DNA of 64,000 nt from NCBI RefSeq assembly GCF_964019385.1, contig NC_088655.1:13628731-13692730 (forward strand), read 5' to 3'. A program made the position numbers and the translations under genes. This document shows, one piece after another, positions 601 through 64,000 of this stretch; within the stretch, counting starts at the first letter, position 1; every line of letters begins with the position of its first letter. The stretch is from Sycon ciliatum. Its lineage: Eukaryota > Porifera > Calcarea > Leucosolenida > Sycettidae. The notes beneath the pieces were generated by a model that saw nothing but the letters and a program-made list of their open reading frames with translations, had not been told where the DNA came from and searched no databases.

Positions 601-813
601 CTGGAAAATTTAACTATCTCCAAGTTTAGGGCTTGGTATCCGTGAATCTTCATTTTGCGACTAAACTATTCACAGCAATGCTAAAATTTCACAGTCACTG
701 AATATGGGTGCTAGCGCCCTACAAGCAAACCAAAAATCAAACCAATGCGACCACTGACATTACAGCTGGGTCACGTTATAGAGAGGTACGTTGAAATAGG
801 AAGGTAAGCACAA

Positions 814-817
814 AATA
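814..817 (+). repeat. AATA insertion marker 1
   Basis: There are four extra bases before the anchor, giving CACAAAATAATGG instead of CACAAATGG. The variant occurs only six times in 174 monomers, twice per superunit copy, and so is a phase marker for the superunit. The exact inserted bases are ambiguous because of the short A/T repeat. Confidence 0.9.
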
Positions 818-1106
818 ATGGTCAAAATCCGACATTTTCTCACCTTTATGCCCGTTCGCAGCTCAGAAATTGACAATGACCATTCTCATCTCGTGTTGTA
901 GCTGGACATAGACAAGGGCACCCAGAAAAACACCCACATTTCTCTAAAGAACTTTCCCAGGGCTGCTGAAAGCTGGATAATTACCTATGTCCAAGTTTAG
1001 GGCTTGGTACCCGTGAATCTTCACTTTGCGACTAAACTATTCACAGCAGTGCCAAATTTTCTGGGTCACTAAATTCGGATGACAGCGCCCTACAAGCAGA
1101 CCAAAA

Positions 1107-1473
1107 ATCAAACCAATGCGACCACTGATATTACAGCTGGGTCATGTTATAGAGAGGTACGTTGAAATTCAAAGGTAAGCACAAATGGTAAAAATCTGAC
1201 ATTTTCTCACCTTTATGCCCGTTCGCAGCTCAGAAATTGACAATGACCATCCTCATCTTGTTGTGTAGCTGGACATAGACAAGGGCACCCAGAAAAAGAC
1301 CCACTTTTCTTTAAAGAACTTGCCCAGGGCTGCTGAAAGCTGGATAATTACCTATCTCCAAGTTAAGGGCTTGGTACCCGTGAATCTTCACTTTGCGACT
1401 AAACTATTCACAGCAGTGCCAAATTTTCGGGGTCACTGAATTCGGGTGCCAGCGCCCTACAAGCAAACCAAAA
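1107..1473 (+). repeat. Hybrid B/A monomer, copy 1
   Basis: The 5' part is type B (GATATT, CATG, ATTCAAAGGTAAG, TTGTTGTGTAG). The 3' part is type A (CACCCAGAAAAAGACCC, GGATAATT, CCAAATTTTCGGGG, GAATTCGGG). The switch lies between about 1266 and 1289. It is followed by another B-start monomer, so strict alternation breaks here. Counterparts are at 27551 and 48104. Confidence 0.8.
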
Positions 1474-1840
1474 ATCAGTCCAATGCGACCACTGATATTA
1501 CAGCTGGGTCATGTAATAGAGAGGTACGTTGAAATTCAAAGGTGAGCACAAATGGTCAAAATACGACATTTTCTCACCTTTATGCCCGTTCGCAGATCAG
1601 AAAATGACAACAACCATCCTCATCTCGTTTTGTAGCGGGACATAGACAAGGGCACCAGGAAAAACAGTCACATGTCTCTAAAGAACTCGCCCAGGGCTGC
1701 TGAAAGCTGGAAAATTACCTATCTCCAAGTTTAGGGCTTGGTACCCGTGAATCTTCATTTTGCGACTAAATTATTCACAGCAGTGCTAAAATTTCTCGGT
1801 CACTGAATGTGGGTGCCAGCGCCCTACAAGCAAACCAAAA

Positions 1841-2207
1841 ATCAAACCAATGCGACCACTGACATTACAGCTCGGTCACGTTATAGAGAGGTACGTTGAA
1901 ATAGGAAGGTAAGCACAAATGGTCAAAATCCGACATTTTCTCACCTTTATGCCCGTTCGCAGCTCAGAAATTGACAATGACCATCCTCATCTTGTTGTGT
2001 AGCTGGACATAGACAAGGCCACCAGGAAAAACAGTCACATTTCTCTAAAGAACTCGATCAGGGCTGCTGAAAGCTGGAAAATTACCTATCTCCAAGTTTA
2101 GTGCTTGGTACCCGTGAATCTTCACTTTGCGACTAAACTATTCACAGCAGTGCCAAATTTTTTGGGTCACTGAATTCGGGTGCCAGCGCCCTACAAGCAG
2201 ACCAAAA
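1841..2207 (+). repeat. Hybrid A/B/A monomer with AAGGCCACC variant
   Basis: This monomer starts as type A (GACATT, CACG, AATAGGAAGG). It becomes type B from about 1983 (CATCCTCATCTTG to AACTCGATCAGG) and returns to type A by about 2119 (CTTCACTTT, GCCAAATTTTTTGGG). Private variants AAGGCCACC and CTCGATCAGG mark its descendants at 28652, 49205 and 49939. Two switches in one monomer suggest gene conversion rather than a single crossover. Confidence 0.78.
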
Positions 2208-2574
2208 ATCAAACCAATGCGACCACTGATATTACAGCTGGGTCATGTTATAGAGAGGTACGTTGAAATTCAAAGGTAAGCACAAATGGTAAAAATCCGA
2301 CATTTTCTCACCTTTATGCCCGTTCGCAGCTCAGAAATTGACAATGACCATCCTCATCTTGTTGTGTAGCTGGACATAGACAAGGGCACCAGGAAAAACA
2401 GTCACATTTCTCTAAAGAACTCGCCCAGGGCTGCTGAAAGCTGGAAAATTACCTATCTCCAAGTTAAGGGCTTGGTACCCGTGAATCTTCATTTTGCGAC
2501 TAAACTATTCACAGCAGTGCTAAAATTTCTCGGTCACTGAATGTGGGTGCCAGCGCCCTAAAATCAGGCCAAAA

Positions 2575-2941
2575 ATCAAACCAATGCGACCACTGACATT
2601 AGAGCTGGGTCACGTTATAGAGAGGTACGTTGAAATAGGAAGGTAAGCACAAATGGTCAAAATCCGACATTTTCTCACCTTTATGCCCGTTCGCAGCTCA
2701 GAAATTGACAATGACCATTCTCATCTCGTTTTGTAGCTGGACATAGACAAGGGCACCCAGAAAAAGACCCACATTTCTCTAAAGAACTTGCCCAGGGCTG
2801 CTGAAAGCTGGATAATTACCTATCTCCAAGTTAAGGGCTTGGTACCCGTGAATCTTCACTTTGCGACTAAACTATTCACAGCAGTGCCAAATTTTCTGGG
2901 TCACTGAATTCGGGTGCCAGCGCCCTACAAGCAGACCAAAA
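2575..2941 (+). repeat. Reference type A monomer (367 bp)
   Basis: This is a representative type A monomer. Diagnostic positions in order: ACATTAGAGC near the start (most type A have ACATTACAGC), GTCACGTT, AATAGGAAGGTAAGC just before the anchor, CATTCTCATCTCG, CACCCAGAAAAAGACCC, AACTTGCCC, GGATAATT, CTTCACTTT, GCCAAATTTTCTGGG, GAATTCGGG and AGCAGACC at the end. Type A normally alternates with type B, from which it differs at about 25-30 positions, so the two are roughly 92% alike by eye. Several differences are CpG-to-TpG changes in B (CACG to CATG, CTCG to CTTG), consistent with decay of methylated CpG, although direction cannot be fixed from one window. Confidence 0.93.
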
Positions 2942-3309
2942 ATCAAACCAATGCGACCACTGATATTACAGCTGGGTCATGTTATAGAGAGGTACGTTGA
3001 AATTCAAAGGTGAGCACAAATGGTCAAAATCCGACATTTTCGCACCTTTATGCCCGTTCGCAGATCAGAAAATGACAATGACCATCCTCATCTCGTTTTG
3101 TAGCTGGACATAGACAAGGGCACCAGGAAAAACAGTCACATTTCTCTAAAGAACTCGCCCCGGGGCTGCTGAAAGCTGGAAAATTACCTATCTCCAAGTT
3201 TAGGGCTTGGTACTCGTGAATCTTCATTTTGCGACTAAACTATTCACAGCAGTGCTAAAATTTCTCGGTCACTGAATGTGGGTGCCAGCGCCCTACAAGC
3301 AAACCAAAA

Positions 3310-6249
3310 ATCAAACCAATGCGACCACTGACATTACAGCTGGGTCACGTTATAGAGAGGTACGTTGAAATAGGAAGGTAAGCACAAAATAATGGTCAAA
3401 ATCCGACATTTTCTCACCTTTATGCCCGTTCGAAGCCCAGAAATTGCCAATGACCATTCTCATCTCGTTTTGTAGCTGGACATAGACAAGGGCACCCAGA
3501 AAAAGACCCACATTTCTCTAAAGAACTTGCCCAGGGCTGCTGAAAGCTGGATAATTACCTATCTCCAAGTTTAGGGCTTGGTACCCGTGAATCTTCACTT
3601 TGCGACTAAACTATTCACAGCAGTGCCAAATTTTCTGGGTCACTAAATTCTGGTGCCAGCGCCCTACAAGCAGACCAAAAATCAAATCAATGCGACCACT
3701 GATATTACAGCTGGGTCATGTTATAGAGAGGTACGTTGAATTTCAAAGGTGAGCACAAATGGTCAAAATCCGACATTTTCTCACCTTTATGCCCCTTCGC
3801 AGCTCAGAAATTGACAATGACCATCCTCATCTTGTTGTGTAGCTGGACATAGACAAGGGCACCAGGAAAAACAGTCACATTTCTCTAAAAAAATCGCCCA
3901 GAGCTGCTGAAAGCTGGAAAATTACCTATCTCCAAGTTAAGGGCTTGGTACCCGTGAATCTTCATTTTGCGACTAAACTATTCACAGCAGTGCTAAAATT
4001 TCACAGTCACTGAATGTGGGTGCCAGCGCCCTACAAGCTAACCAAAAATCAAACCAATGCGACCACTGACATTACAGCTGGGTCACGTTATAGAGAGGTA
4101 CGTTGAAATAGGAAGGTAAGCACAAATGGTCAAAATCCGACATTTTCTCACCTTTATGCCCGTTCGCAGCTCAGAAATTGACAATGACCATTCTCATCTC
4201 CCATTGTAGCTGGATAGAGACAAGGGCACCCAGAAAAATACCCACATTTCTCTAAAGAACTTGCCCAGGGCTGTTGAAAGCTGGATAATTACCTATCTCC
4301 AAGTTTAGGGCTTGGTACCCGTGAATCTTCACTTTGCGACTAAACTATTCACAGCAGTGCCAAATTTTCTGGGTCACTGAATTCGGGTGCCAGCACCCTA
4401 CAAGCAGACCAAAAATCAGTCCAATGCGACCACTGATATTACAGCTGGGTCATGTTATAGAGAGGTACGTTGAAATTCAAAGGTGAGCACAAATGGTCAA
4501 AATCCGACATTTTCTCACCTTTATGCCCGTTCGCAGATCAGAAAATGACAATGACCATCCTCATCTCGTTTTGTAGCTGGACATAGACAAGGGCACCAGG
4601 AAAAACAGTCACATTTCTCTAAAGAACTCGCCCAGGGCTGCTGAAAGCCGGAAAATTACCTATCTCCAAGTTTAGGGCTTGGTACCCGTGAATCTTCATT
4701 TTGCGACTAAACTATTCACAGCAGTGCTAAAATTTCTCGGTCACTGAATGTGGGTGCCAGCGCCCTACAAGCAAACCAAAAATCAAACCAATGCGACCAC
4801 TGACATTACAGCTGGGTCACGTTATAGAGAGGTACGTTGAAATAGGAAGGTAAGCACAAATGGTCAAAATCCGACATTTTCTCACCTTTATGCCCGTTCG
4901 AAGCCCAGAAATTGCCAATGACCATTCTCATCTCGTTTTGTAGCTGGACATAGACAAGGGCACCCAGAAAAAGACCCACATTTCTCTAAAGAACTTGCCC
5001 AGGGCTGCTGAAAGCTGGATAATTACCTATCTCCAAGTTTAGGGCTTGGTACCCGTGAATCTTCACTTTGCGACTAAACTATTCACAGCAGTGCCAAATT
5101 TTCTGGGTCACTGAATTTGGGTGCCAGCGCCCTACAAGCAGACCAAAAATCAAACCAATGCGACCACTGATATTACAGCTGGGTCATGTTATAGAGAGGT
5201 ACGTTGAAATTCAAAGGTGAGCACAAATGGTCAAAATCCGACATTTTCTCACCTTTATGCCCGTTCGCAGATCAGAAAATGACAATGACCATCCTCATCT
5301 CGTTGTGTAGCTGGACATAGAAAAGGGCACCAGGAAAAACAGTCACATTTCTCTAAAGAACTCGCCCAGGGCTGCTGAAAGCTGGAAAATTACCTATCTC
5401 CAAGTTTAGGGCTTGGTACCCGTGAATCTTCACTTTGCGACTAAACTATTCACAGCAGTGCTAAAATTTGACAGTCACTGAATGTGGGTGCTAGCGCCCT
5501 ACAAGCAAACCAAAAATCAAACCAATACGACCACTGACATTACAGCTGGGTCACGTTATAGAAAGGTACGTTGAAATAAGAAGGTAAGCACAAATGGTCA
5601 AAATCCGACATTTTCTCAACTTTATGCCCGTTCGCAGCTCAGAAATTGACAATGACCATTCTCATCTCCCTTTGTAGGTGGACATAGACAAGCGCACCCA
5701 GAAAAATACCCACATTTCTCTAAAGAACTTGCCCAGGGCTGTTGAAAGCTGGATAATTACCTATCTCCAAGTTTAGGGCTTGGTACCCGTGAATCTTCAC
5801 TTTGCGACTAAACTATTCACAGCAGTGCCAAATTTTCTGGGTCACTGAATTCGGGTGCCAGCGCCCAACAAGCAGACCAAAATTCAAACCAATGCGACCA
5901 CTAATATTACAGCTGGGTCATGTTATAGAGAGGTACGTTGAAATTCAAAGGTGAGCACAAATGGTCAAAATCCGACATTTTCTCACCTTTATGCCCGTTC
6001 GCAGCTCAGAAATTGACAATGACTATCCTCATCTTGTTGTGTAGCTGGAAATAGACAAGGGCACCAGGAAAAACAGTCACATTACTATAAAGAACTCGCC
6101 CAGGGCTGCTGAAAGCTGGAAAATTCCCTATCTCCAAGTTAAGGTCTTGGCACCCGTGAATCTTCATTTTGCGACTAAACTATTCACAGCAGTGCTAAAA
6201 TTTCTCGGTCACTGAATGTGGGTGCCAGCGCCCTACAAGCAAACCAAAA
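3310..6249 (+). repeat. Eight alternating A/B monomers, copy 1
   Basis: Four A-B dimers. Type A subtypes appear in the order CGAAGCCC, CTCCCATTGTAG with GGATAGAG, CGAAGCCC, and CTCCCTTTGTAGGTGG. Type B subtypes appear in the order CCCTTCGC with AAAAAAATCGCCC, AAAGCCGG, GTTGTGTAG with GACATAGAAAAGG, and GGAAATAG with TTACTATAAAG. The same order is found at 30121-33060 and 51408-54347. Confidence 0.85.
3388..3391 (+). repeat. AATA insertion marker 2
   Basis: This is the same 4-bp insertion as at 814, here in a type A monomer of the CGAAGCCC subtype. It lies 2574 bp from marker 1, which is seven monomers plus 5 bp of indels. Confidence 0.9.
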
Positions 6250-8818
6250 ATCAAACCAATGCGACCACTGACATTACAGCTGGGTCACGTTATAGAGAGG
6301 TAAGTTGAAATAGGAAGGTAAGCACAAATGGTCAAAATCCGACATTTTCTCACCTTTATGCCCGTTCGTAGCCCAGAAATTGCCAATGACCATTCTCATC
6401 TCGTTTTGTAGCTGGACATAGACAAGGGCACCCAGAAAAAGACCCACATTTCTCTAAAGAACTTGCCCAGGGCTGCTGAAAGCTGGATAATTACCTATCT
6501 CCAAGTTTAGGGCTTGGTACCCGTGAATCTTCACTTTGCGACTAAACTATTCACAGCAGTGCCAAATTTTCTGGGTCACTGAATTCGGGTGCCAGCGCCC
6601 AACAAGCAGACCAAAATTCAAACCAATGCGACCACTGATATTACAGCTGGGTCATGTTATAGAGAGGTACGTTGAAATTCAAAGGTGAGCACAAATGGTC
6701 AAAATCCGACATTTTCTCACCTTTATGCCCGTTCGCAGCTCAGAAATTGACAATGACCATTCTCATCTCCCTTTGTAGGTGGACATAGACAAGGGCACCC
6801 AGAAAAATACCCACATTTCTCTAAAGAACTTGCCCAGAGCTGTTGAAAGCTGGATAATTACCTATCTCCAAGTTTAGGGCTTGGTACCCGTGAATCTTCA
6901 CTTTGCGACTAAACTATTCACAGCAGTGCCAAATTTTCTGGGTCACTGAATTCGGGTGCCAGCGCCCAACAAGCAGACCAAAATTCAAACCAATGCGACC
7001 ACTGATATTACAGCTGGGTCATGTTATAGAGAGGTACGTTGAAATTCAAAGGTGAGCACAAATGGTCAAAATCCGACATTTTCTCACCTTTATGCCCGTT
7101 CGCAGCTCAGAAATTGACAATGACTATCCTCATCTTGTTGTGTAGCTGGAAATAGACAAGGGCACCAGGAAAAACAGTCACATTTCTATAAAGAACTCGC
7201 CCAGGGCTGCTGAAAGCTGGAAAATTACCTATCTCCAAGTTAAGGTCTTGGCACCCGTGAATCTTCATTTTGCGACTAAACTATTCACAGCAGTGCTAAA
7301 ATTTCTCGGTCACTGAATGTGGGTGCCAGCGCCCTACAAGCAAACCAAAAATCAAACCAATGCGACCACTGACATTACAGCTGGGTCACGTTATAGAGAG
7401 GTAAGTTGAAATAGGAAGGTAAGCACAAATGGTCAAAATCCGACATTTTCTCACCTTTATGCCCGTTCGTAGCCCAGAAATTGCCAATGACCATTCTCAT
7501 CTCGTTTTGTAGCTGGACATAGACAAGGGCACCCAGAAAAAGACCCACATTTCTCTAAAGAACTTGCCCAGGGCTGCTGAAAGCTGGATAATTACCTATC
7601 TCCAAGTTTAGGGCTTGGTACCCGTGAATCTTCACTTTGCGACTAAACTATTCACAGCAGTGCCAAATTTTCTGGGTCACTGAATTTGGGTGCCAGCGCC
7701 CTACAAGCAGACCAAAAATCAAACCAATGCGACCACTGATATTACAGCTGGGTCATGTTATAGAGAGGTACGTTGAAATTCAAAGGTGAGCACAAATGGT
7801 CAAAATCCGACATTTTCTCACCTTTATGCCCGTTCGCAGCTCAGAAATTGACAATGACCATCCTCATCTTGTTGTGTAGCTGGAAATAGACAAGGGCACC
7901 AGGAAAAACAGTCACATTTCTATAAAGAACTCGCCCAGGGCTGCTGAAAGCTGGAAAATTATCTATCTCCAAGTTAAGGTCTTGGCACCCGTGAATCTTC
8001 ATTTTGCGACTAAACTATTCACAGCAGTGCTAAAATTTCTCGGTCACTGAATGTGGGTGCCAGCGCCCTACAAGCAAACCAAAAATCAAACCAATGCGAC
8101 CACTGACATTACAGCTGGGTCACGTTATAGAGAGGTACGTTGAAATAGGAAGGTAAGCACAAATGGTCAAAATCCGACATTTTCTCACCTTTATGCCCGT
8201 TCGCGGCTCAGAAATTGACAATGACCATTCTCATCTCGTTTCGTAGCTGGATAGAGACAAGGGCACCCAGAAAAATACCCACATTTCTCTAAAGAACTTG
8301 CCCAGGGCTGTTGAAAGCTGGATAATTACCTATCTCCAAGTTTAGGGCTTGGTACCCGTGAATCTTCACTTTGCGACTAAACTATTCACAGCAGTGCCAC
8401 ATTTTCTGGGTCACTGAATTCGGGTGCCAGCGCCCTACAAGCAGACCAAAAATCAGTCCAATGCGACCACTGATATTACAGCTGGGTCATGTTATAGAGA
8501 GGTACGTTGAAATTCAAAGGTGAGCACAAATGGTCAAAATCCGACATTTTCTCGCCTTTATGCCCGTTCGCAGATCAGAAAATGACAATGACCATCCTCA
8601 TCTCGTTTTGTAGCTGGACATAGACAAGGGCACCAGGAAAAACAGTCACATTTCTCTAAAGAACTCGCCCAGGGCTGCTGAAAGCCGGAAAATTACCTAT
8701 CTCCAAGTTTAGGGCTTGGTACCCGTGAATCTTCATTTTGCGACTAAACTATTCACAGCAGTGCTAAAATTTCTCGGTCACTGAATGTGGGTGCCAGCGC
8801 CCTACAAGCAAACCAAAA
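6250..8818 (+). repeat. Seven monomers with a rearranged start, copy 1
   Basis: Two type A monomers of the CGTAGCCC subtype (6250, 7351) and two of the GGAAATAG type B subtype (6984, 7718) lie close together, separated by a B/A hybrid at 6617. Copies 2 and 3 have a different arrangement in the first part, with a net three more monomers (33061-34895 and 54348-56182). Copy 1 is therefore the odd one out and has probably lost 1101 bp. The block ends with the CGCGGCTCAG type A monomer and the AAAGCCGG type B monomer. Confidence 0.75.
6617..6983 (+). repeat. Hybrid B/A monomer at a contraction junction, copy 1
   Basis: The 5' end is type B (GATATT, CATG, ATTCAAAGGTGAG). From about 6758 it is type A of the CTCCCTTTGTAGGTGG subtype, with the private CCCAGAGCTGTTG also seen in the type A monomers at 34529 and 55816. 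The hybrid is followed directly by another type B monomer. It marks where copy 1 is three monomers shorter than the other copies. Confidence 0.75.
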
Positions 8819-11754
8819 ATCAAACCAATGCGACCACTGACATTACAGCTGGGTCACGTTATAGAGAGGTACGTTGAAATAGGAAGGTAAGCACAAATGG
8901 TCAAAATCCGACATTTTCTCACCTTTATGCCCGTTCGAAGCCCAGAAATTGCCAATGACCATTCTCATCTCGTTTTGTAGCTGGACATAGACAAGGGCAC
9001 CCAGAAAAAGACCCACATTTCTCTAAAGAACTTGCCCAGGGCTGCTGAAAGCTGGATAATTACCTATCTCCAAGTTTAGGGCTTGGTACCCGTGAATCTT
9101 CACTTTGCGACTAAACTATTCACAGCAGTGCCAAATTTTCTGGGTCACTGAATTTGGGTGCCAGCGCCCTACAAGCAGACCAAAAATCAAACCAATGCGA
9201 CCACTGATATTACAGCTGGGTCATGTTATAGAGAGGTACGTTGAAATTCAAAGGTGAGCACAAATGGTCAAAATCCGACATTTTCTCACCTTTATGCCCG
9301 TTCGCAGATCAGAAAATGACAATGACCATCCTCATCTCGTTGTGTAGCTGGACATAGACAAGGGCACCAGGAAAAACAGTCACATTTCTATAAAGAACTC
9401 GCCCAGGGCTGCTGAAAGCTGGAAAATTACCTATCTCCAAGTTTAGGGCTTGGTACCCGTGAATCTTCACTTTGCGACTAAACTATTCACAGCAGTGCTA
9501 AAATTTCACAGTCACTGAATGTGGGTGCTAGCGCCCTACAAGCAAACCAAAAATCAAACCAATACGACCACTGACATTACAGCTGGGTCACGTTATAGAA
9601 AGGTACGTTGAAATAAGAAGGTAAGCACAAATGGTCAAAATCCGACATTTTCTCACCTTTATGCCCGTTCGCAGCTCAGAAATTGACAATGACCATTCTC
9701 ATCTCCCTTTGTAGGTGGACATAGACAAGGGCACCCAGAAAAATACCCACATTTCTCTAAAGAACTTGCCCAGGGCTGTTGAAAGCTGGATAATTACCTA
9801 TCTCCAAGTTTAGGGCTTGGTACCCGTGAATCTTCACTTTGCGACTAAACTATTCACAGCAGTGCCAAATTTTCTGGGTCACTGAATTCGGGTGCCAGCG
9901 CCCAACAAGCAGACCAAAAATCAAACCAATGCGACCACTGATATTACAGCTGGGTCATGTTATAGAGAGGTACGTTGAAATTCAAAGGTGAGCACAAATG
10001 GTCAAAATCCGACATTTTCTCACCTTTATGCCCGTTCGCAGCTCAGAAATTGACAATGACCATCCTCATCTTGTTGTGTAGCTGGAAATAGACAAGGGCA
10101 CCAGGAAAAACAGTCACATTTCTATAAAGAACTCGCCCAGGGCTGCTGAAAGCTGGAAAATTACCTATCTCCAAGTTAAGGTCTTGGCACCCGTGAATCT
10201 TCATTTTGCGACTAAACTATTCACAGCAGTGCTAAAATTTCTCGGTCACTGAATGTGGGTGCCAGCGCCCTACAAGCAAACCAAAAATCAAACCAATGCG
10301 ACCACTGACATTACAGCTGGGTCACGTTATAGAGAGGTACGTTGAAATAGGAAGGTAAGCACAAATGGTCAAAATCCGACATTTTCTCACCTTTATGCCC
10401 GTTCGCGGCTCAAAAATTGACAATGACCATTCTCATCTCGTTTCGTAGCTGGACATAGACAAGGGCACCAAGAAAAAGACCCACATTTCTCTAAAGAACT
10501 TGCCCAGGGCTGCTGAAAGCTGGATAATTACCTATCTCCAAGTTTAGGGCTTGGTACCCGTGAATCTTCACTTTGCGACTAAACTATTCACAGCAGTGCC
10601 AAATTTTCTGGGTCACTAAATTCTGGTGCCAGCGCCCTACAAGCAGACCAAAAATCAAATCAATGCGACCACTGATATTACAGCTGGGTCATGTTATAGA
10701 GAGGTACGTTGAAATTCAAAGGTGAGCACAAATGGTCAAAATCCGACATTTTCTCACCTTTATGCCCCTTCGCAGCTCAGAAATTGACAATGACCATCCT
10801 CATCTTGTTGTGTAGCTGGACATAGACAAGGGCACCAGGAAAAACAGTCACATTTCTCTAAAAAAATCGCCCAGAGCTGCTGAAAGCTGGAAAATTACCT
10901 ATCTCCAAGTTAAGGGCTTGGTACCCGTGAATCTTCATTTTGCGACTAAACTATTCACAGCAGTGCTAAAATTTCACAGTCACTGAATGTGGGTGCCAGC
11001 GCCCTACAAGCAAACCAAAAATCAAACCAATGCGACCACTGACATTACAGCTGGGTCACGTTATAGAGAGGTACGTTGAAATAGGAAGGTAAGCACAAAT
11101 GGTCAAAATCCGACATTTTCTCACCTTTATGCCCGTTCGCAGCTCAGAAATTGACAATGACCATTCTCATCTCCCTTTGTAGCTGGATAGAGACAAGGGC
11201 ACCCAGAAAAATACCCACATTTCTCTAAAGAACTTGCCCAGGGCTGTTGAAAGCTGGATAATTACCTATCTCCAAGTTTAGGGCTTGGTACCCGTGAATC
11301 TTCACTTTGCGACTAAACTATTCACAGCAGTGCCAAATTTTCTGGGTCACTGAATTCGGGTGCCAGCGCCCTACAAGCAGACCAAAAATCAGTCCAATGC
11401 GACCACTGATATTACAGCTGGGTCATGTTATAGAGAGGTACGTTGAAATTCAAAGGTGAGCACAAATGGTCAAAATCCGACATTTTCTCGCCTTTATGCC
11501 CGTTCGCAGATCAGAAAATGACAATGACCATCCTCATCTCGTTTTGTAGCTGGACATAGACAAGGGCACCAGGAAAAACAGTCACATTTCTCTAAAGAAC
11601 TCGCCCAGGGCTGCTGAAAGCCGGAAAATTACCTATCTCCAAGTTTAGGGCTTGGTACCCGTGAATCTTCATTTTGCGACTAAACTATTCACAGCAGTGC
11701 TAAAATTTCTCGGTCACTGAATGTGGGTGCCAGCGCCCTACAAGCAAACCAAAA
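8819..11754 (+). repeat. Eight-monomer higher-order unit (2,936 bp)
   Basis: This is the complete 8-mer of alternating A and B. Type A subtypes in order are CGAAGCCC; CTCCCTTTGTAGGTGG with TAAGAAGG; CGCGGCTCAAAAATTG with TCACTAAATTCTGG; and CTCCCTTTGTAG with GGATAGAG. Type B subtypes in order are CAGATCAG with TTCTATAAAG; GGAAATAG with TTAAGGTCTTGGC; CCCTTCGC with AAAAAAATCGCCC; and CTCGCC with AAAGCCGG. The 8-mer reappears at 59853-62788 in copy 3 and is the parent of the 7-mers that follow. Confidence 0.88.
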
Positions 11755-20900: not shown

Positions 20901-20935
20901 GCCCTACAAACAGACCCTGCCCTACAAACAGACCC
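20901..20935 (+). repeat. 18-bp tandem duplication inside a monomer end
   Basis: GCCCTACAAACAGACCCT is followed directly by a second copy of its first 17 bases. With one further extra base in CCATTACCTATTACAG just downstream, the monomer spacing becomes 386 bp. It is unique to copy 1; the copy 2 counterpart of this region has been deleted as part of a four-monomer loss. Confidence 0.88.
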
Positions 20936-47810: not shown

Positions 47811-47814
47811 AATA
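47811..47814 (+). repeat. AATA insertion marker 5
   Basis: This is the copy 3 counterpart of markers 1 and 3, 20553 bp after marker 3. Confidence 0.9.
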
Positions 47815-51407: not shown

Positions 51408-54347
51408 ATCAAACCAATGCGACCACTGACATTACAGCTGGGTCACGTTATAGAGAGGTACGTTGAAATAGGAAGGTAAGCACAAAATAATGGTCAAAAT
51501 CCGACATTTTCTCACCTTTATGCCCGTTCGAAGCCCAGAAATTGCCAATGACCATTCTCATCTCGTTTTGTAGCTGGACATAGACAAGGGCACCCAGAAA
51601 AAGACCCACATTTCTCTAAAGAACTTGCCCAGGGCTGCTGAAAGCTGGATAATTACCTATCTCCAAGTTTAGGGCTTGGTACCCGTGAATCTTCACTTTG
51701 CGACTAAACTATTCACAGCAGTGCCAAATTTTCTGGGTCACTAAATTCTGGTGCCAGCGCCCTACAAGCAGACCAAAAATCAAATCAATGCGACCACTGA
51801 TATTACAGCTGGGTCATGTTATAGAGAGGTACGTTGAATTTCAAAGGTGAGCACAAATGGTCAAAATCCGACATTTTCTCACCTTTATGCCCCTTCGCAG
51901 CTCAGAAATTGACAATGACCATCCTCATCTTGTTGTGTAGCTGGACATAGACAAGGGCACCAGGAAAAACAGTCACATTTCTCTAAAAAAATCGCCCAGA
52001 GCTGCTGAAAGCTGGAAAATTACCTATCTCCAAGTTAAGGGCTTGGTACCCGTGAATCTTCATTTTGCGACTAAACTATTCACAGCAGTGCTAAAATTTC
52101 ACAGTCACTGAATGTGGGTGCCAGCGCCCTACAAGCTAACCAAAAATCAAACCAATGCGACCACTGACATTACAGCTGGGTCACGTTATAGAGAGGTACG
52201 TTGAAATAGGAAGGTAAGCACAAATGGTCAAAATCCGACATTTTCTCACCTTTATGCCCGTTCGCAGCTCAGAAATTGACAATGACCATTCTCATCTCCC
52301 ATTGTAGCTGGATAGAGACAAGGGCACCCAGAAAAATACCCACATTTCTCTAAAGAACTTGCCCAGGGCTGTTGAAAGCTGGATAATTACCTATCTCCAA
52401 GTTTAGGGCTTGGTACCCGTGAATCTTCACTTTGCGACTAAACTATTCACAGCAGTGCCAAATTTTCTGGGTCACTGAATTCGGGTGCCAGCACCCTACA
52501 AGCAGACCAAAAATCAGTCCAATGCGACCACTGATATTACAGCTGGGTCATGTTATAGAGAGGTACGTTGAAATTCAAAGGTGAGCACAAATGGTCAAAA
52601 TCCGACATTTTCTCACCTTTATGCCCGTTCGCAGATCAGAAAATGACAATGACCATCCTCATCTCGTTTTGTAGCTGGACATAGACAAGGGCACCAGGAA
52701 AAACAGTCACATTTCTCTAAAGAACTCGCCCAGGGCTGCTGAAAGCCGGAAAATTACCTATCTCCAAGTTTAGGGCTTGGTACCCGTGAATCTTCATTTT
52801 GCGACTAAACTATTCACAGCAGTGCTAAAATTTCTCGGTCACTGAATGTGGGTGCCAGCGCCCTACAAGCAAACCAAAAATCAAACCAATGCGACCACTG
52901 ACATTACAGCTGGGTCACGTTATAGAGAGGTACGTTGAAATAGGAAGGTAAGCACAAATGGTCAAAATCCGACATTTTCTCACCTTTATGCCCGTTCGAA
53001 GCCCAGAAATTGCCAATGACCATTCTCATCTCGTTTTGTAGCTGGACATAGACAAGGGCACCCAGAAAAAGACCCACATTTCTCTAAAGAACTTGCCCAG
53101 GGCTGCTGAAAGCTGGATAATTACCTATCTCCAAGTTTAGGGCTTGGTACCCGTGAATCTTCACTTTGCGACTAAACTATTCACAGCAGTGCCAAATTTT
53201 CTGGGTCACTGAATTTGGGTGCCAGCGCCCTACAAGCAGACCAAAAATCAAACCAATGCGACCACTGATATTACAGCTGGGTCATGTTATAGAGAGGTAC
53301 GTTGAAATTCAAAGGTGAGCACAAATGGTCAAAATCCGACATTTTCTCACCTTTATGCCCGTTCGCAGATCAGAAAATGACAATGACCATCCTCATCTCG
53401 TTGTGTAGCTGGACATAGACAAGGGCACCAGGAAAAACAGTCACATTTCTCTAAAGAACTCGCCCAGGGCTGCTGAAAGCTGGAAAATTACCTATCTCCA
53501 AGTTTAGGGCTTGGTACCCGTGAATCTTCACTTTGCGACTAAACTATTCACAGCAGTGCTAAAATTTGACAGTCACTGAATGTGGGTGCTAGCGCCCTAC
53601 AAGCAAACCAAAAATCAAACCAATACGACCACTGACATTACAGCTGGGTCACGTTATAGAAAGGTACGTTGAAATAAGAAGGTAAGCACAAATGGTCAAA
53701 ATCCGATATTTTCTCAACTTTATGCCCGTTCGCAGCTCAGAAATTGACAATGACCATTCTCATCTCCCTTTGTAGGTGGACATAGACAAGCGCACCCAGA
53801 AAAATACCCACATTTCTCTAAAGAACTTGCCCAGGGCTGTTGAAAGCTGGATAATCACCTATCTCCAAGTTTAGGGCTTGGTACCCGTGAATCTTCACTT
53901 TGCGACTAAACTATTCACAGCAGTGCCAAATTTTCTGGGTCACTGAATTCGGGTGCCAGCGCCCAACAAGCAGACCAAAATTCAAACCAATGCGACCACT
54001 GATATTACAGCTGGGTCATGTTATAGACAGGTACGTTGAAATTCAAAGGTGAGCACAAATGGTCAAAATCCGACATTTTCTCACCTTTATGCCCGTTCGC
54101 AGCTCAGAAATTGACAATGACTATCCTCATCTTGTTGTGTAGCTGGAAATAGACAAGGGCACCAGGAAAAACAGTCACATTACTATAAAGAACTCGCCCA
54201 GGGCTGCTGAAAGCTGGAAAATTCCCTATCTCCAAGTTAAGGTCTTGGCACCCGTGAATCTTCATTTTGCGACTAAACTATTCACAGCAGTGCTAAAATT
54301 TCTCGGTCACTGAATGTGGGTGCCAGCGCCCTACAAGCAAACCAAAA
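51408..54347 (+). repeat. Eight alternating A/B monomers, copy 3
   Basis: This is the counterpart of 30121-33060 at offset 21287, with the same subtype order and the same AATA marker in the first monomer. Only scattered base changes are visible, such as CCGATATTTTC near 53707 and TAGACAGG near 54029. Confidence 0.87.
51486..51489 (+). repeat. AATA insertion marker 6
   Basis: This is the copy 3 counterpart of markers 2 and 4, 3675 bp after marker 5. The interval is ten monomers, against seven and eight in copies 1 and 2. Confidence 0.9.
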
Positions 54348-56916
54348 ATCAAACCAATGCGACCACTGACATTACAGCTGGGTCACGTTATAGAGAGGTA
54401 AGTTGAAATAGGAAGGTAAGCACAAATGGTCAAAATCCGACATTTTCTCACCTTTATGCCCGTTCGTAGCCCAGAAATTGCCAATGACCATTCTCATCTC
54501 GTTTTGTAGCTGGACATAGACAAGGGCACCCAGAAAAAGACCCACATTTCTCTAAAGAACTTGCCCAGGGCTGCCGAAAGCTGGATAATTACCTATCTCC
54601 AAGTTTAGGGCTTGGTACCCGTGAATCTTCACTTTGCGACTAAACTATTCACAGCAGTGCCAAATTTTCTGGGTCACTGAATTTGGGTGCCATCGCCCTA
54701 CAAGCAGACCAAAAATCAAACCAATGCGACCACTGATATTACAGCTGGGTCATGTTATAGAGAGGTACGTTGAAATTCAAAGGTGAGCACAAATGGTCAA
54801 AATCCGACATTTTCTCACCTTTATGCCCGTTCGCAGCTCAGAAATTGACAATGACCATCCTCATCTTGTTGTGTAGCTGGAAATAGACAAGGGCACCAGG
54901 AAAAACAGTCACATTTCTATAAAGAACTCGCCCAGGGCTGCTGAAAGCTGGAAAATTATCTATCTCCAAGTTAAGGTCTTGGCACCCGTGAATCTTCATT
55001 TTGCGACTAAACTATTCACAGCAGTGCTAAAATTTCTCGGTCACTGAATGTGGGTGCCAGCGCCCTACAAGCAAACCAAAAATCAAACCAATGCGACCAC
55101 TGACATTACAGCTGGGTCACGTTATAGAGAGGTACGTTGAAATAGGAAGGTAAGCACAAATGGTCAAAATCCGACATTTTCTCACCTTTATGCCCGTTCG
55201 CGGCTCAGAAATTGACAATGACCATTCTCATCTCGTTTCGTAGCTGGACATAGACAAGGGCACCCAGAAAAAGACCCACATTTCTCTAAAGAACTTGCCC
55301 AGGGCTGCTGAAAGCTGGATAATTACCTATCTCCAAGTTTAGGGCTTGGTACCCGTGAATCTTCACTTTGCGACTAAACTATTCACAGCAGTGCCAAATT
55401 TTCTGGGTCACTGAATTTGGGTGCCAGCGCCCTACAAGCAGACCAAAAATCAAACCAATGCGACCACTGATATTACAGCTGGGTCATGTTATAGAGAGGT
55501 ACGTTGAAATTCAAAGGTGAGCACAAATGGTCAAAATCCGACATTTTCTCACCTTTATGCCCGTTCGCAGATCAGAAAATGACAATGACCATCCTCATCT
55601 CGTTGTGTAGCTGGACATAGACAAGGGCACCAGGAAAAACAGTCACATTTCTCTAAAGAACTCGCCCAGGGCTGCTGAAAGCTGGAAAATTACCTATCTC
55701 CAAGTTTAGGGCTTGGTACCAGTGAATCTTCACTTTGCGACTAAACTATTCACAGCAGTGCTAAAATTTCACAGTCACTGAATGTGGGTGCTAGCGCCCT
55801 ACAAGCAAACCAAAAATCAAACCAATACGACCACTGACATTACAGCTGGGTCACGTTATAGAAAGGTACGTTGAAATAAGAAGGTAAGCACAAATGGTCA
55901 AAATCCGACATTTTCTCAACTTTATGCCCGTTCGCAGCTCAGAAATTGACAATGACCATTCTCATCTCCCTTTGTAGGTGGACATAGACAAGGGCACCCA
56001 GAAAAATACCCACATTTCTCTAAAGAACTTGCCCAGAGCTGTTGAAAGCTGGATAATTACCTATCTCCAAGTTTAGGGCTTGGTACCCGTGAATCTTCAC
56101 TTTGCGACTAAACTATTCACAGCAGTGCCAAATTTTCTGGGTCACTGAATTCGGGTGCCAGCGCCCAACAAGCAGACCAAAATTCAAACCAATGCGACCA
56201 CTGATATTACAGCTGGGTCATGTTATAGAGAGGTACGTTGAAATTCAAAGGTGAGCACAAATGGTCAAAATCCGACATTTTCTCACCTTTATGCCCGTTC
56301 GCAGCTCAGAAATTGACAATGACTATCCTCATCTTGTTGTGTAGCTGGAAATAGACAAGGGCACCAGGAAAAACAGTCACATTTCTATAAAGAACTCGCC
56401 CAGGGCTGCTGAAAGCTGGAAAATTACCTATCTCCAAGTTAAGGTCTTGGCACCCGTGAATCTTCATTTTGCGACTAAACTATTCACAGCAGTGCTAAAA
56501 TTTCTCGGTCACTGAATGTGGGTGCCAGCGCCCTACAAGCAAACCAAAAATCAAACCAATGCGACCACTGACATTACAGCTGGGTCACGTTATAGAGAGG
56601 TAAGTTGAAATAGGAAGGTAAGCACAAATGGTCAAAATCCGACATTTTCTCACCTTTATGCCCGTTCGTAGCCCAGAAATTGCCAATGACCATTCTCATC
56701 TCGTTTTGTAGCTGGACATAGACAAGGGCACCCAGAAAAAGACCCACATTTCTCTAAAGAACTTGCCCAGGGCTGCTGAAAGCTGGATAATTACCTATCT
56801 CCAAGTTTAGGGCTTGGTACCCGTGAATCTTCACTTTGCGACTAAACTATTCACAGCAGTGCCAAATTTTCTGGGTCACTGAATTTGGGTGCCAGCGCCC
56901 TACAAGCAGACCAAAA
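54348..56916 (+). repeat. Seven monomers matching copy 2
   Basis: This aligns to 33061-35629 at offset 21287. It includes the CGTAGCCC, CGCGGCTC fusion, CTCAACTTT and GGAAATAG subtypes. I see nothing else in it. Confidence 0.86.
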
Positions 56917-58751
56917 ATCAAACCAATGCGACCACTGATATTACAGCTGGGTCATGTTATAGAGAGGTACGTTGAAATTCAAAGGTGAGCACAAATGGTC
57001 AAAATCCGACATTTTCTCACCTTTATGCCCGTTCGCAGCTCAGAAATTGACAATGACCATCCTCATCTTGTTTTGTAGCTGGAAATAGACAAGGGCACCA
57101 GGAAAAACAGTCACATTTCTATAAAGAACTCGCCCAGGGCTGCTGAAAGCTGGATAATTACCTATCTCCAAGTTAAGGTCTTGGCACCCGTGAATCTTCA
57201 TTTTGCGACTAAACTATTCACAGCAGTGCTAAAATTTCTCGGTCACTGAATGTGGGTGCCAGCGCCCTACAAGCAAACCAAAAATCAAACCAATGCGACC
57301 ACTGACATTACAGCTGGGTCACGTTATAGAGAGGTACGTTGAAATAGGAAGGTAAGCACAAATGGTCAAAATCCGACATTTTCTCACCTTTATGCCCGTT
57401 CGCGGCTCAGAAATTGACAATGACCATTCTCATCTCGTTTCGTAGCTGGATAGAGACAAGGGCACCCAGAAAAATACCCACATTTCTCTAAAGAACTTGC
57501 CCAGGGCTGTTGAAAGCTGGATAATTACCTATCTCCAAGTTTAGGGCTTGGTACCCGTGAATCTTCACTTTGCGACTAAACTATTCACAGCAGTGCCACA
57601 TTTTCTGGGTCACTGAATTCGGGTGCCAGCGCCCTACAAGCAGACCAAAAATCAGTCCAATGCGACCACTGATATTACAGCTGGGTCATGTTATAGAGAG
57701 GTACGTTGAAATTCAAAGGTGAGCACAAATGGTCAAAATCCGACATTTTCTCGCCTTTATGCCCGTTCGCAGATCAGAAAATGACAATGACCATCCTCAT
57801 CTCGTTTTGTAGCTGGACATAGACAAGGGCACCAGGAAAAACAGTCACATTTCTCTAAAGAACTCGCCCAGGGCTGCTGAAAGCCGGAAAATTACCTATC
57901 TCCAAGTTTAGGGCTTGGTACCCGTGAATCTTCATTTTGCGACTAAACTATTCACAGCAGTGCTAAAATTTCTCGGTCACTGAATGTGGGTGCCAGCGCC
58001 CTACAAGCAAACCAAAAATCAAACCAATGCGACCACTGACATTACAGCTGGGTCACGTTATAGAGAGGTACGTTGAAATAGGAAGGTAAGCACAAATGGT
58101 CAAAATCCGACATTTTCTCACCTTTATGCCCGTTCGAAGCCCAGAAATTGCCAATGACCATTCTCATCTCGTTTTGTAGCTGGACATAGACAAGGGCACC
58201 CAGAAAAAGACCCACATTTCTCTAAAGAACTTGCCCAGGGCTGCTGAAAGCTGGATAATTACCTATCTCCAAGTTTAGGGCTTGGTACCCGTGAATCTTC
58301 ACTTTGCGACTAAACTATTCACAGCAGTGCCAAATTTTCTGGGTCACTGAATTTGGGTGCCAGCGCCCTACAAGCAGACCAAAAATCAAACCAATGCGAC
58401 CACTGATATTACAGCTGGGTCATGTTATAGAGAGGTACGTTGAAATTCAAAGGTGAGCACAAATGGTCAAAATCCGACATTTTCTCACCTTTATGCCCGT
58501 TCGCAGATCAGAAAATGACAATGAGCATCCTCATCTCGTTGTGTAGCTGGACATAGACAAGGGCACCAGGAAAAACAGTCACATTTCTATAAAGAACTCG
58601 CCCAGGGCTGCTGAAAGCTGGAAAATTACCTATCTCCAAGTTTAGGGCTTGGTACCCGTGAATCTTCACTTTGCGACTAAACTATTCACAGCAGTGCCAA
58701 ATTTTCTGGGTCACTGAATTTGGGTGCCAGCGCCCTACAAGCAGACCAAAA
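56917..58751 (+). repeat. Five-monomer unit, first copy (1,835 bp)
   Basis: The monomers are GGAAATAG B, CGCGGCTCAG A with GGATAGAG, AAAGCCGG B, CGAAGCCC A, and a CAGATCAG B that ends as type A. The same five follow at 58752-60586. An odd number of monomers breaks the A/B alternation, and the junction is the hybrid monomer at 58385. Confidence 0.85.
58385..58751 (+). repeat. Hybrid B/A monomer at the 5-mer duplication junction
   Basis: It is type B through GGAAAATT and CACAGCAGTG, then type A from GCCAAATTTTC (about 58694) with a GAATTTGGG end. That end is typical of the monomer preceding the GGAAATAG type B monomer. The next monomer is again B-start. This fits an unequal exchange offset by five monomers. 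Confidence 0.83.
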
Positions 58752-60586
58752 ATCAAACCAATGCGACCACTGATATTACAGCTGGGTCATGTTATAGAGA
58801 GGTACGTTGAAATTCAAAGGTGAGCACAAATGGTCAAAATCCGACATTTTCTCACCTTTATGCCCGTTCGCAGCTCAGAAATTGACAATGACCATCCTCA
58901 TCTTGTTGTGTAGCTGGAAATAGACAAGGGCACCAGGAAAAACAGTCACATTTCTATAAAGAACTCGCCCAGGGCTGCTGAAAGCTGGAAAATTATCTAT
59001 CTCCAAGTTAAGGTCTTGGCACCCGTGAATCTTCATTTTGCGACTAAACTATTCACAGCAGTGCTAAAATTTCTCGGTCACTGAATGTGGGTGCCAGCGC
59101 CCTACAAGCAAACCAAAAATCAAACCAATGCGACCACTGACATTACAGCTGGGTCACGTTATAGAGAGGTACGTTGAAATAGGAAGGTAAGCACAAATGG
59201 TCAAAATCCGACATTTTCTCACCTTTATGCCCGTTCGCGGCTCAGAAATTGACAATGACCATTCTCATCTCGTTTCGTAGCTGGATAGAGACAAGGGCAC
59301 CCAGAAAAATACCCACATTTCTCTAAAGAACTTGCCCAGGGCTGTTGAAAGCTGGATAATTACCTATCTCCAAGTTTAGGGCTTGGTACCCGTGAATCTT
59401 CACTTTGCGACTAAACTATTCACAGCAGTGCCACATTTTCTGGGTCACTGAATTCGGGTGCCAGCGCCCTACAAGCAGACCAAAAATCAGTCCAATGCAA
59501 CCACTGATATTACAGCTGGGTCATGTTATAGAGAGGTACGTTGAAATTCAAAGGTGAGCACAAATGGTCAAAATCCGACATTTTCTCGCCTTTATGCCCG
59601 TTCGCAGATCAGAAAATGACAATGACCATCCTCATCTCGTTTTGTAGCTGGACATAGACAAGGGCACCAGGAAAAACAGTCACATTTCTCTAAAGAACTC
59701 GCCCAGGGCTGCTGAAAGCCGGAAAATTACCTATCTCCAAGTTTAGGGCTTGGTACCCGTGAATCTTCATTTTGCGACTAAACTATTCACAGCAGTGCTA
59801 AAATTTCTCGGTCACTGAATGTGGGTGCCAGCGCCCTACAAGCAAACCAAAAATCAAACCAATGCGACCACTGACATTACAGCTGGGTCACGTTATAGAG
59901 AGGTACGTTGAAATAGGAAGGTAAGCACAAATGGTCAAAATCCGACATTTTCTCACCTTTATGCCCGTTCGAAGCCCAGAAATTGCCAATGACCATTCTC
60001 ATCTCGTTTTGTAGCTGGACATAGACAAGGGCACCCAGAAAAAGACCCACATTTCTCTAAAGAACTTGCCCAGGGCTGCTGAAAGCTGGATAATTACCTA
60101 TCTCCAAGTTTAGGGCTTGGTACCCGTGAATCTTCACTTTGCGACTAAACTATTCACAGCAGTGCCAAATTTTCTGGGTCACTGAATTTGGGTGCCAGCG
60201 CCCTACAAGCAGACCAAAAATCAAACCAATGCGACCACTGATATTACAGCTGGGTCATGTTATAGAGAGGTACGTTGAAATTCAAAGGTGAGCACAAATG
60301 GTCAAAATCCGACATTTTCTCACCTTTATGCCCGTTCGCAGATCAGAAAATGACAATGACCATCCTCATCTCGTTGTGTAGCTGGACATAGACAAGGGCA
60401 CCAGGAAAAACAGTCACATTTCTATAAAGAACTCGCCCAGGGCTGCTGAAAGCTGGAAAATTACCTATCTCCAAGTTTAGGGCTTGGTACCCGTGAATCT
60501 TCACTTTGCGACTAAACTATTCACAGCAGTGCTAAAATTTCACAGTCACTGAATGTGGGTGCTAGCGCCCTACAAGCAAACCAAAA
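58752..60586 (+). repeat. Five-monomer unit, second copy (1,835 bp)
   Basis: It repeats 56917-58751, but its last monomer (60220) has the normal type B end (TTTCACAGTC, GTGCTAGCG). Visible differences between the two copies are single bases, such as GTTTTGTAG against GTTGTGTAG in the first monomer and GCAACCAC near 59499. Confidence 0.85.
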
Positions 60587-63500
60587 ATCAAACCAATACG
60601 ACCACTGACATTACAGCTGGGTCACGTTATAGAAAGGTACGTTGAAATAAGAAGGTAAGCACAAATGGTCAAAATCCGACATTTTCTCACCTTTATGCCC
60701 GTTCGCAGCTCAGAAATTGACAATGACCATTCTCATCTCCCTTTGTAGGTGGACATAGACAAGGGCACCCAGAAAAATACCCACATTTCTCTAAAGAACT
60801 TGCCCAGGGCTGTTGAAAGCTGGATAATTACCTATCTCCAAGTTTAGGGCTTGGTACCCGTGAATCTTCACTTTGCGACTAAACTATTCACAGCAGTGCC
60901 AAATTTTCTGGGTCACTGAATTCGGGTGCCAGCGCCCAACAAGCAGACCAAAAATCAAACCAATGCGACCACTGATATTACAGCTGGGTCATGTTATAGA
61001 GAGGTACGTTGAAATTCAAAGGTGAGCACAAATGGTCAAAATCCGACATTTTCTCACCTTTATGCCCGTTCGCAGCTCAGAAATTGACAATGACCATCCT
61101 CATCTTGTTGTGTAGCTGGAAATAGACAAGGGCACCAGGAAAAACAGTCACATTTCTATAAAGAACTCGCCCAGGGCTGCTGAAAGCTGGAAAATTACCT
61201 ATCTCCAAGTTAAGGTCTTGGCACCCGTGAATCTTCATTTTGCGACTAAACTATTCACAGCAGTGCTAAAATTTCTCGGTCACTGAATGTGGGTGCCAGC
61301 GCCCTACAAGCAAACCAAAAATCAAACCAATGCGACCACTGACATTACAGCTGGGTCACGTTATAGAGAGGTACGTTGAAATAGGAAGGTAAGCACAAAT
61401 GGTCAAAATCCGACATTTTCTCACCTTTATGCCCGTTCGCGGCTCAAAAATTGACAATGACCATTCTCATCTCGTTTCGTAGCTGGACATAGACAAGGGC
61501 ACCAAGAAAAAGACCCACATTTCTCTAAAGAACTTGCCCAGGGCTGCTGAAAGCTGGATAATTACCTATCTCCAAGTTTAGGGCTTGGTACCCGTGAATC
61601 TTCACTTTGCGACTAAACTATTCACAGCAGTGCCAAATTTTCTGGGTCACTAAATTCTGGTGCCAGCGCCCTACAAGCAGACCAAAAATCAAATCAATGC
61701 GACCACTGATATTACAGCTGGGTCATGTTATAGAGAGGTACGTTGAAATTCAAAGGTGAGCACAAATGGTCAAAATCCGACATTTTCTCACCTTTATGCC
61801 CCTTCGCAGCTCAGAAATTGACAATGACCATCCTCATCTTGTTGTGTAGCTGGACATAGACAAGGGCACCAGGAAAAACAGTCACATTTCTCTAAAAAAA
61901 TCGCCCAGAGCTGCTGAAAGCTGGAAAATTACCTATCTCCAAGTTAAGGGCTTGGTACCCGTGAATCTTCATTTTGCGACTAAACTATTCACAGCAGTGC
62001 TAAAATTTCACAGTCACTGAATGTGGGTGCCAGCGCCCTACAAGCAAACCAAAAATCAAACCAATGCGACCACTGACATTACAGCTGGGTCACGTTATAG
62101 AGAGGTACGTTGAAATAGGAAGGTAAGCACAAATGGTCAAAATCCGACATTTTCTCACCTTTATGCCCGTTCGCAGCTCAGAAATTGACAATGACCATTC
62201 TCATCTCCCTTTGTAGCTGGATAGAGACAAGGGCACCCAGAAAAATACCCACATTTCTCTAAAGAACTTGCCCAGGGCTGTTGAAAGCTGGATAATTACC
62301 TATCTCCAAGTTTAGGGCTTGGTACCCGTGAATCTTCACTTTGCGACTAAACTATTCACAGCAGTGCCAAATTTTCTGGGTCACTGAATTCGGGTGCCAG
62401 CGCCCTACAAGCAGACCAAAAATCAGTCCAATGCGACCACTGATATTACAGCTGGGTCATGTTATAGAGAGGTACGTTGAAATTCAAAGGTGAGCACAAA
62501 TGGTCAAAATCCGACATTTTCTCGCCTTTATGCCCGTTCGCAGATCAGAAAATGACAATGACCATCCTCATCTCGTTTTGTAGCTGGACATAGACAAGGG
62601 CACCAGGAAAAACAGTCACATTTCTCTAAAGAACTCGCCCAGGGCTGCTGAAAGCCGGAAAATTACCTATCTCCAAGTTTAGGGCTTGGTACCCGTGAAT
62701 CTTCATTTTGCGACTAAACTATTCACAGCAGTGCTAAAATTTCTCGGTCACTGAATGTGGGTGCCAGCGCCCTACAAGCAAACCAAAAATCAAACCAATG
62801 CGACCACTGACATTACAGCTGGGTCACGTTATAGAGAGGTACGTTGAAATAGGAAGGTAAGCACAAATGGTCAAAATCCGACATTTTCTCACCTTTATGC
62901 CCGTTCGAAGCCCAGAAATTGCCAATGACCATTCTCATCTCGTTTTGTAGCTGGACATAGACAAGGGCACCCAGAAAAAGACCCACATTTCTCTAAAGAA
63001 CTTGCCCAGGGCTGCTGAAAGCTGGATAATTACCTATCTCCAAGTTTAGGGCTTGGTACCCGTGAATCTTCACTTTGCGACTAAACTATTCACAGCAGTG
63101 CCAAATTTTCTGGGTCACTGAATTTGGGTGCCAGCGCCCTACAAGCAGACCAAAAATCAAACCAATGCGACCACTGATATTACAGCTGGGTCATGTTATA
63201 GAGAGGTACGTTGAAATTCAAAGGTGAGCACAAATGGTCAAAATCCGACATTTTCTCACCTTTATGCCCGTTCGCAGATCAGAAAATGACAATGACCATC
63301 CTCATCTCGTTGTGTAGCTGGACATAGACAAGGGCACCAGGAAAAACAGTCACATTTCTATAAAGAACTCGCCCAGGGCTGCTGAAAGCTGGAAAATTAC
63401 CTATCTCCAAGTTTAGGGCTTGGTACCCGTGAATCTTCACTTTGCGACTAAACTATTCACAGCAGTGCTAAAATTTCACAGTCACTGAATGTGGGTGCTA

Positions 63501-63889
63501 GCGCCCTACAAGCAAACCAAAAATCAAACCAATACGACCACTGACATTACAGCTGGGTCACGTTATAGAAAGGTACGTTGAAATAAGAAGGTAAGCACAA
63601 ATGGTCAAAATCCGACATTTTCTCACCTTTATGCCCGTTCGCAGCTCAGAAATTGACAATGACCATTCTCATCTCCCTTTGTAGGTGGACATAGACAAGG
63701 GCACCCAGAAAAATACCCACATTTCTCTAAAGAACTTGCCCAGGGCTGTTGAAAGCTGGATAATTACCTATCTCCAAGTTTAGGGCTTGGTACCCGTGAA
63801 TCTTCACTTTGCGACTAAACTATTCACAGCAGTGCCAAATTTTCTGGGTCACTGAATTCGGGTGCCAGCGCCCAACAAGCAGACCAAAA
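60587..63889 (+). repeat. Intact 8-mer order in copy 3 (nine monomers)
   Basis: It matches copy 1 from 9553 at a constant offset of 51034, including the unfused GGAAATAG and CGCGGCTCAAAAATTG monomers that define the 8-mer. Copy 2 lacks two of these monomers. Copy 3 here is therefore closer to copy 1 than to its neighbour copy 2. Confidence 0.86.
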
Positions 63890-64000
63890 ATCAAACCAAT
63901 GCGACCACTGATATTACAGCTGGGTCATGTTATAGAGAGGTACGTTGAAATTCAAAGGTGAGCACAAATGGTCAAAATCCGACATTTTCTCACCTTTATG
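63890..64000 (+). repeat. Partial type B monomer at the right edge
   Basis: This is the first 111 bp of a type B monomer (GATATT, CATG, ATTCAAAGGTGAG and the anchor at 63968), cut by the window end. The array continues beyond. Confidence 0.95.

Follow-up and report, generated by a model that had tools for sequence, protein, structure and literature searches.

A block of 56 to 72 monomers is present three times in a satellite array

A 367-bp satellite array of the sponge Sycon ciliatum contains three head-to-tail copies of a segment of about 20-26 kb (56-72 monomers), with the monomer register kept. This arrangement is likely to have arisen by recent tandem duplication in register, through unequal homologous exchange, followed by smaller gains and losses. 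The window, as we call the complete 64,000-nt stretch of DNA analysed (contig C14 13628731-13692730, within a genome of 538 Mb in 313 contigs that was searched), consists throughout of a single head-to-tail tandem repeat of 367 bp (174.3 copies, 91% match). It is part of a 76-kb forward block, which reaches 5.8 kb to the left of the window and about 6.1 kb to the right of it, where the forward array ends at contig position 13698833. The array and the three copies of the superunit are, in window coordinates:

1..64000, forward strand: 367-bp satellite array, 174 monomers in a single orientation, GC about 44%
736..27179, forward strand: superunit copy 1, 72 monomers, 26444 bp (rounded to monomer boundaries; the actual edge lies at about 527-605)
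27180..47732, forward strand: superunit copy 2, 56 monomers, 20553 bp
47733..64000 and on to contig position 13698833, forward strand: superunit copy 3, 60 monomers in total, partly in the window

Among the 174 monomers in the window, 159 are 367 bp long, with six of 368 bp, six of 371 bp, two of 358 bp and one of 386 bp. There are two monomer classes, A and B (82 and 92 monomers), and since these alternate, with the alternation broken at 13 of the 173 neighbour pairs, they form a dimer of 734 bp. The mean number of differences is 13.2 within class A and 15.4 within class B (3.6 and 4.2%), and 32.7 between A and B. Among the open-licence papers listed there was no description of this satellite, and none contained the six monomer words. 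Two papers, on Chironomus and on tef, matched "367 bp" together with satellite terms; the tef paper was rejected, as there this is the mean read length and the satellite is 169 bp. The satellite window had no match in a plasmid collection, and no Rfam family reached the gathering score in the 10 of 29 flank and probe loci searched. In the genome, a COX1 search that was positive in 8 of 14 controls had no match, nor did a search for an arthropod cuticle family that was positive in 0 of 14 controls.

For the window with its flanks, only nhmmer matches spanning more than 330 monomer positions were used (479/505), and for clustering into monomer types (average of at most 3 differences) the relics to the right of contig position 13699500 were additionally left out. 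The ordered string of these types is read through three times in the window and the right flank. The original prediction of a 20-26 kb superunit above the monomer and the dimer is thus borne out, and its "about 2.4" repeats become about three copies once the right flank is counted. Between copies 1 and 2, 51/52 aligned monomer pairs have at most 8 differences and the divergence is 0.240%; this is 45/46 and 0.236% for copies 2 and 3, and 47/49 and 0.186% for copies 1 and 3, all three divergences leaving out the aligned pairs with more than 8 differences (1/52, 1/46 and 2/49, respectively). Against these 0.19-0.24% between copies stands a mean monomer difference inside one copy of 23.3-23.9 columns of about 367, or approximately 6.4%. 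The closest relative of a monomer, with ties allowed, is found in another copy for 70/72, 56/56 and 60/60 monomers of the respective copies (186/188 overall). The forward array has 1460 24-mers with exactly three occurrences; 1374 of them have one in every copy, and these are collinear for 1354 in copy 2 and for all 1374 in copy 3. One such word is private to the superunit, with three exact occurrences in the 538-Mb genome, all within the window and at the predicted offsets:

598..621, forward strand: superunit-private 24-mer, first copy (others at 27042 and 47595), from an exact search of the genome

Long parallel diagonals, named beforehand as the test for the superunit, are present both at the predicted and at shifted offsets. 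Positions 21307-29018 match 41860-49571 at an offset of 20553 (15 differing columns per 7.7 kb), 28652-37097 match 49939-58384 at 21287 (18 differences per 8.4 kb), 1841-6616 match 28652-33427 at 26811 (10 differences per 4.8 kb), and 7718-12855 match 58752-63889 at 51034 (1 difference per 5.1 kb). Over the 206 monomers of the forward block, flanks included, runs of monomer pairs with at most 3 differences at a lag of at least 20 reach a length of 23, compared with maxima of 6 when the order of dimers was permuted and 14 when the order of 7-mer blocks was permuted (200 shuffles each). The offset drifts along the copies from 20553 to 23122 and from 26444 to 27912, because of internal gains and losses, and with 20/4 (copies 1 and 2), 10/14 (copies 2 and 3) and 23/11 (copies 1 and 3) unmatched monomers the copies are structurally far from complete matches.

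This drift is also visible in the rare private variants, which had been predicted to recur in the same order at offsets of 26444 and 20553 bp. For AAATTTAACTA, found at 606, 27050 and 47603, the steps are exactly these. The other variants need correction. The AATA insertion (searched as AAAATAATGG) is present twice per copy (812/3386, 27256/30197 and 47809/51484), AAGGCCACC was found four times (2015, 28826, 49379 and 50113) and has a first step of 26811, and the 358-bp monomers with the 9-bp deletion are present in the window only at 18728 and 40768, an offset of 22040 that matches neither value.

A threefold repeat of this kind could also be an assembly artefact, with one superunit, or its two haplotypes, wrongly placed in tandem; more generally, copies this alike may have been collapsed, expanded or mis-joined in the assembly. 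The range of divergence between haplotypes in one individual includes 0.19-0.24%, so the divergence of the copies fits this explanation. Assembly is also difficult where satellite copies are near-identical, and some sub-repeats here are 100% identical. However, two haplotypes alone cannot yield three copies, the copies are distinguished by the structural gains and losses given above, and there is not a single N in the 264 kb joined, and we consider such an artefact unlikely.

Local repeats and variant monomers inside the copies

The original prediction placed a 7/8-mer level of 2.6-2.9 kb between the dimer and the superunit, giving four nested periodicities. While those of 367 bp, 734 bp and the superunit are confirmed, the 7/8-mer is a local expansion: a partner with at most 2 differences at lag 7 or 8 exists for only 38/174 monomers, chiefly in the 7-mer at 10654-17993, and we rejected it as an array-wide level. 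With the same threshold, 63/174 monomers have a partner at lags 5-8, 122/174 at lags 54-63 and 150/174 at lags 54-80, counts which are not strictly comparable as the lag ranges are of unequal width. As partners at the lag of the superunit are many and those at lag 7 or 8 are few, the levels running through the window are the monomer, the dimer and the superunit, and a count of four is overstated. Re-use of monomer types is also seen inside the superunit, with type 18 (at most 3 differences) recurring several times inside each copy. The local features are:

10654..17993, forward strand: local 7-mer (2569 bp), almost three repeats with zero differences, inside copy 1
18728..19085, forward strand: 358-bp monomer with the 9-bp deletion, copy 1, counterpart in copy 2 at 40768
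20554..20939, forward strand: 386-bp monomer with an 18-bp tandem duplication
7718..12855, forward strand: tract of copy 1 with 1 difference per 5138 bp from copy 3 (58752-63889)

The 18-bp duplication is also present in the flank part of copy 3 (window coordinate 66072), and is absent from copy 2. Copies 1 and 3 have one difference in the 5138 bp of the tract and 14 in 4776 bp of the front part (Fisher p 0.00035, for a tract chosen after inspection), and in the tract these two copies have probably exchanged sequence recently, with which the shared 18-bp duplication also fits.

Edges of the superunit and order of events

The left edge of the superunit was located by comparison with the sequence 26444 bp downstream:

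527..605, forward strand: left superunit edge, a switch inside one monomer, in register

Positions -400 to 526 carry 33 mismatches in this comparison, and from there until 1449 there are none. Over longer stretches, the two sequences diverge by 3.7% between -1400 and 526 and by 0.15% between 527 and 1829. The prediction of segmental duplication inside the satellite is supported by this sharp in-register edge, together with the collinear 24-mers and the low divergence of the copies. As the switch lies within a monomer and the register is kept, it points to exchange between homologous repeats. The junctions between copies 1 and 2 (at about 26971) and between copies 2 and 3 (at about 47524) are 4 mismatches apart over the approximately 3 kb compared, which is expected if a second event re-used a two-copy array.

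From these comparisons we propose that misaligned arrays underwent an unequal homologous exchange (or break repair in register), which produced a tandem duplication with its switch inside one monomer, and that a second unequal exchange within the resulting two-copy array added the third copy. Each copy would then have been changed by small gains and losses of a few monomers, while copies 1 and 3 would have exchanged some sequence and so renewed their middle part. With three copies, there is little power to tell unequal crossing-over and replication-based repair apart. Under this scheme the superunit would need no function, and would be a footprint of array turnover.

The flanks of the array contain a second duplication with a strand switch

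To the left of the forward block there are inverted, forward and inverted blocks of the 367-bp family with short breaks between them (13529333-13622961). A 3-kb probe at contig position 13500001 consists of inverted satellite over its full length, and no satellite was found in a 3-kb probe at 13400001. One junction at which the strand switches is present twice to the left of the window:

Contig C14 13597675-13597708 (L007) and 13622870-13622903 (L010): duplicated strand-switch junction 34-mer

The 34-mer has exactly two exact matches in the genome, the 209 bp across the strand switch are identical between both sites, and the junction with its surroundings (12 monomers, 22 differences) repeats 25195 bp apart. 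This repeat marks a second, older duplication of similar size, which carried the inversion site. That tandem jumps with a preferred size of 20-26 kb, in at least two independent events, account for most of the array's growth, and not monomer-by-monomer slippage, is improbable in our estimate; if true, the preferred jump size could mirror a physical unit such as the span of a replication fork or a chromatin loop.

At its right end the array stops abruptly against a GC-rich 10-bp minisatellite, GCAGAGGCCC (L011 6120-9354, L012 430-9999). The joining words AAAATTGGTCA at this border recur beside a satellite island of four monomers, and thus the array border itself seems to be duplicated. Past the minisatellite lies a satellite of 55 bp (CACACGGATTCGCTGTGCTC...) that contains many nested periods (L015 293-9940). 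Relics of the 367-bp family, degenerate and in part inverted, are found at contig C14 13763396-13783883 (L018-L020), each monomer being about 83 differences away from the array.

Comparison with higher-order repeats in other genomes

The units of 56-72 monomers had been described as long compared with typical alphoid units. They are indeed longer than the 34-mer that PMC12428378 gives as the largest unit of human alpha satellite, but that paper also reports "superHORs" of 58 and 84 monomers in orangutan alpha satellite, as well as 54-, 53-, 51- and 45-mers, and so unit length alone is not new. In the orangutan 58-mer, types are re-used inside the unit, copies are about 0.25% diverged, and variants arise via gain or loss of sub-blocks (PMC12428378). 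The Sycon superunit resembles this in its unit of at least 45 monomers, its re-used monomer types and a similar divergence between copies. It differs in that the orangutan repeat is alpha satellite (about 171 bp) with 67 copies according to the abstract or 310 according to the results text (PMC12428378), whereas here there are three copies only, and the monomers within the unit are much more alike. Alpha satellite was rejected as the class of the Sycon array, which has a 367-bp and not a 171-bp monomer and no CENP-B box with at most one mismatch.

Cascading higher-order repeats of human chromosome 15 (PMC11050224) are likewise nested, with sub-fragments inside a higher unit, and the 33-mer of human chromosome 21 (PMC6718397) is likewise a long unit, although the units of these chromosomes are shorter (15 to 34 monomers), and those of chromosome 15 have many copies (429 and 164) compared with three here. 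The macro-dyad satellites of Tribolium madens have inverted sub-arrays of kb size and repeated inversion sites, as in the left flank here, but their arrays are described in PMC13081366 as multi-megabase and located on all chromosomes, whereas here a single inversion site is present twice beside the array.

As a higher-order repeat in the broad sense the superunit is well described, with 0.19-0.24% between copies against about 6.4% within. In the sense of Willard, for which PMC12428378 gives monomers that typically differ by 20-40% within the unit and a 5% threshold for types, it is not one, given the mean within-copy difference of 23.3-23.9 columns of about 367. Size (72, 56 and 60 monomers) and re-use of types, here defined at 3 differences or fewer and not at the 5% of that paper, correspond to a superHOR, but three copies in a 76-kb block are not a homogenised array of many copies. 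At the 5% threshold, two types would probably take in the majority of monomers here, and three copies are few, so the structure is better called a "tandem segmental duplication inside a satellite array" than an established higher-order repeat.

The window could still be one piece of a regular, long and homogenised higher-order repeat array, of which the superunit is the standing unit, as the unit size, the internal re-use of monomer types and the low divergence are like those of the orangutan 58-mer (PMC12428378). The forward array, however, measures just 76 kb and holds three copies, and the inverted blocks to its left have 0 monomer types in common with the forward blocks (clusters at an average of at most 3 differences). 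Within the inverted stretch at 13529-13598 kb, among the 70 of 114 segments listed, the longest repeated run is 16 monomers at an offset of about 7 kb, and there is one run of 6 monomers at about 24.6 kb. A regular array is therefore very unlikely, and we retain tandem duplication by unequal exchange as the preferred reading. Block duplication is a known way for satellite arrays to grow, and the superunit is a small member of the superHOR kind. Single duplication events are often unreadable in higher-order repeat arrays because these are so homogenised, and the few copies and one sharp edge allow block copying to be seen clearly here. The order of the steps in array growth can be read from the three copies, the sharp edge, the internal changes specific to each copy and the older, similarly sized duplication nearby.

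Genome distribution of the satellite family and the centromere

A genome search with a 1101-bp satellite query returned candidate matches, which were unscored, and an 18-mer of the monomer has 272 forward and 1591 reverse exact matches in the whole genome. Among the 100 of these 1863 places listed, there is one region each on contigs C1 (spread over 1.9 Mb), C4, C7 (a single match) and C8, the last contig listed. The listing seems to follow contig order; if so, C2, C3, C5 and C6 have no exact match, and the family may be absent from some centromeres. The position of the window, 48% of the way along its 28.4-Mb contig, and the single region on each contig listed suggest that the array, of a chromosome-specific 367-bp satellite, may well be centromeric. 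A 60-kb sample of the cluster on C8 (127 monomers used of 137 matches, under the same length rule) contains the family without a marked dimer or a 20-kb superunit, and has only short local repeats of 4-5 and 15 monomers, with no monomer having fewer than 21 differences from any C14 monomer examined. Given this absence from the C8 sample, superunits are local and not a general property of the family.

The superunit might alternatively be maintained by selection, for example as a unit of kinetochore chromatin. In favour of this, the satellite is confined to one region on each of four contigs among the matches listed, and the genome encodes a candidate CENP-A, a divergent histone H3 variant whose N-terminal tail is unrelated and which is encoded in one open frame (L038, contig C1 87306801-87308800, minus strand), in addition to a canonical H3 that looks animal-like. 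The candidate scores 116 bits against the Pfam histone family, and its best matches in the Protein Data Bank are histone H3 chains, with none named CENP-A among the 60 of 181 matches listed. Against selection, the private 24-mer is restricted to one contig and C8 is without such a superunit in 60 kb, the length of the copies is not constant (56 to 72 monomers), and a search of either strand for the CENP-B box consensus with 0 or 1 mismatch found none. With two mismatches there were 49 and 84 sites per strand, compared with 43-57 in three shuffles. Maintenance by selection is extremely unlikely.

H3- and H4-like sequences were few among the histone-fold matches listed. A cluster of histone-fold genes is located on contig C10 at 19.37-19.78 Mb, many of them matched in two pieces (approximately positions 2-84 and 82-122 of the profile), and by eye these are probably intron-bearing H2A-like genes. 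On contig C1, the satellite matches at 34222285-34234123 and at 34797519-34808623, separated by about 575 kb, have nearly the same spacing, suggesting that another array has undergone a large segmental duplication.
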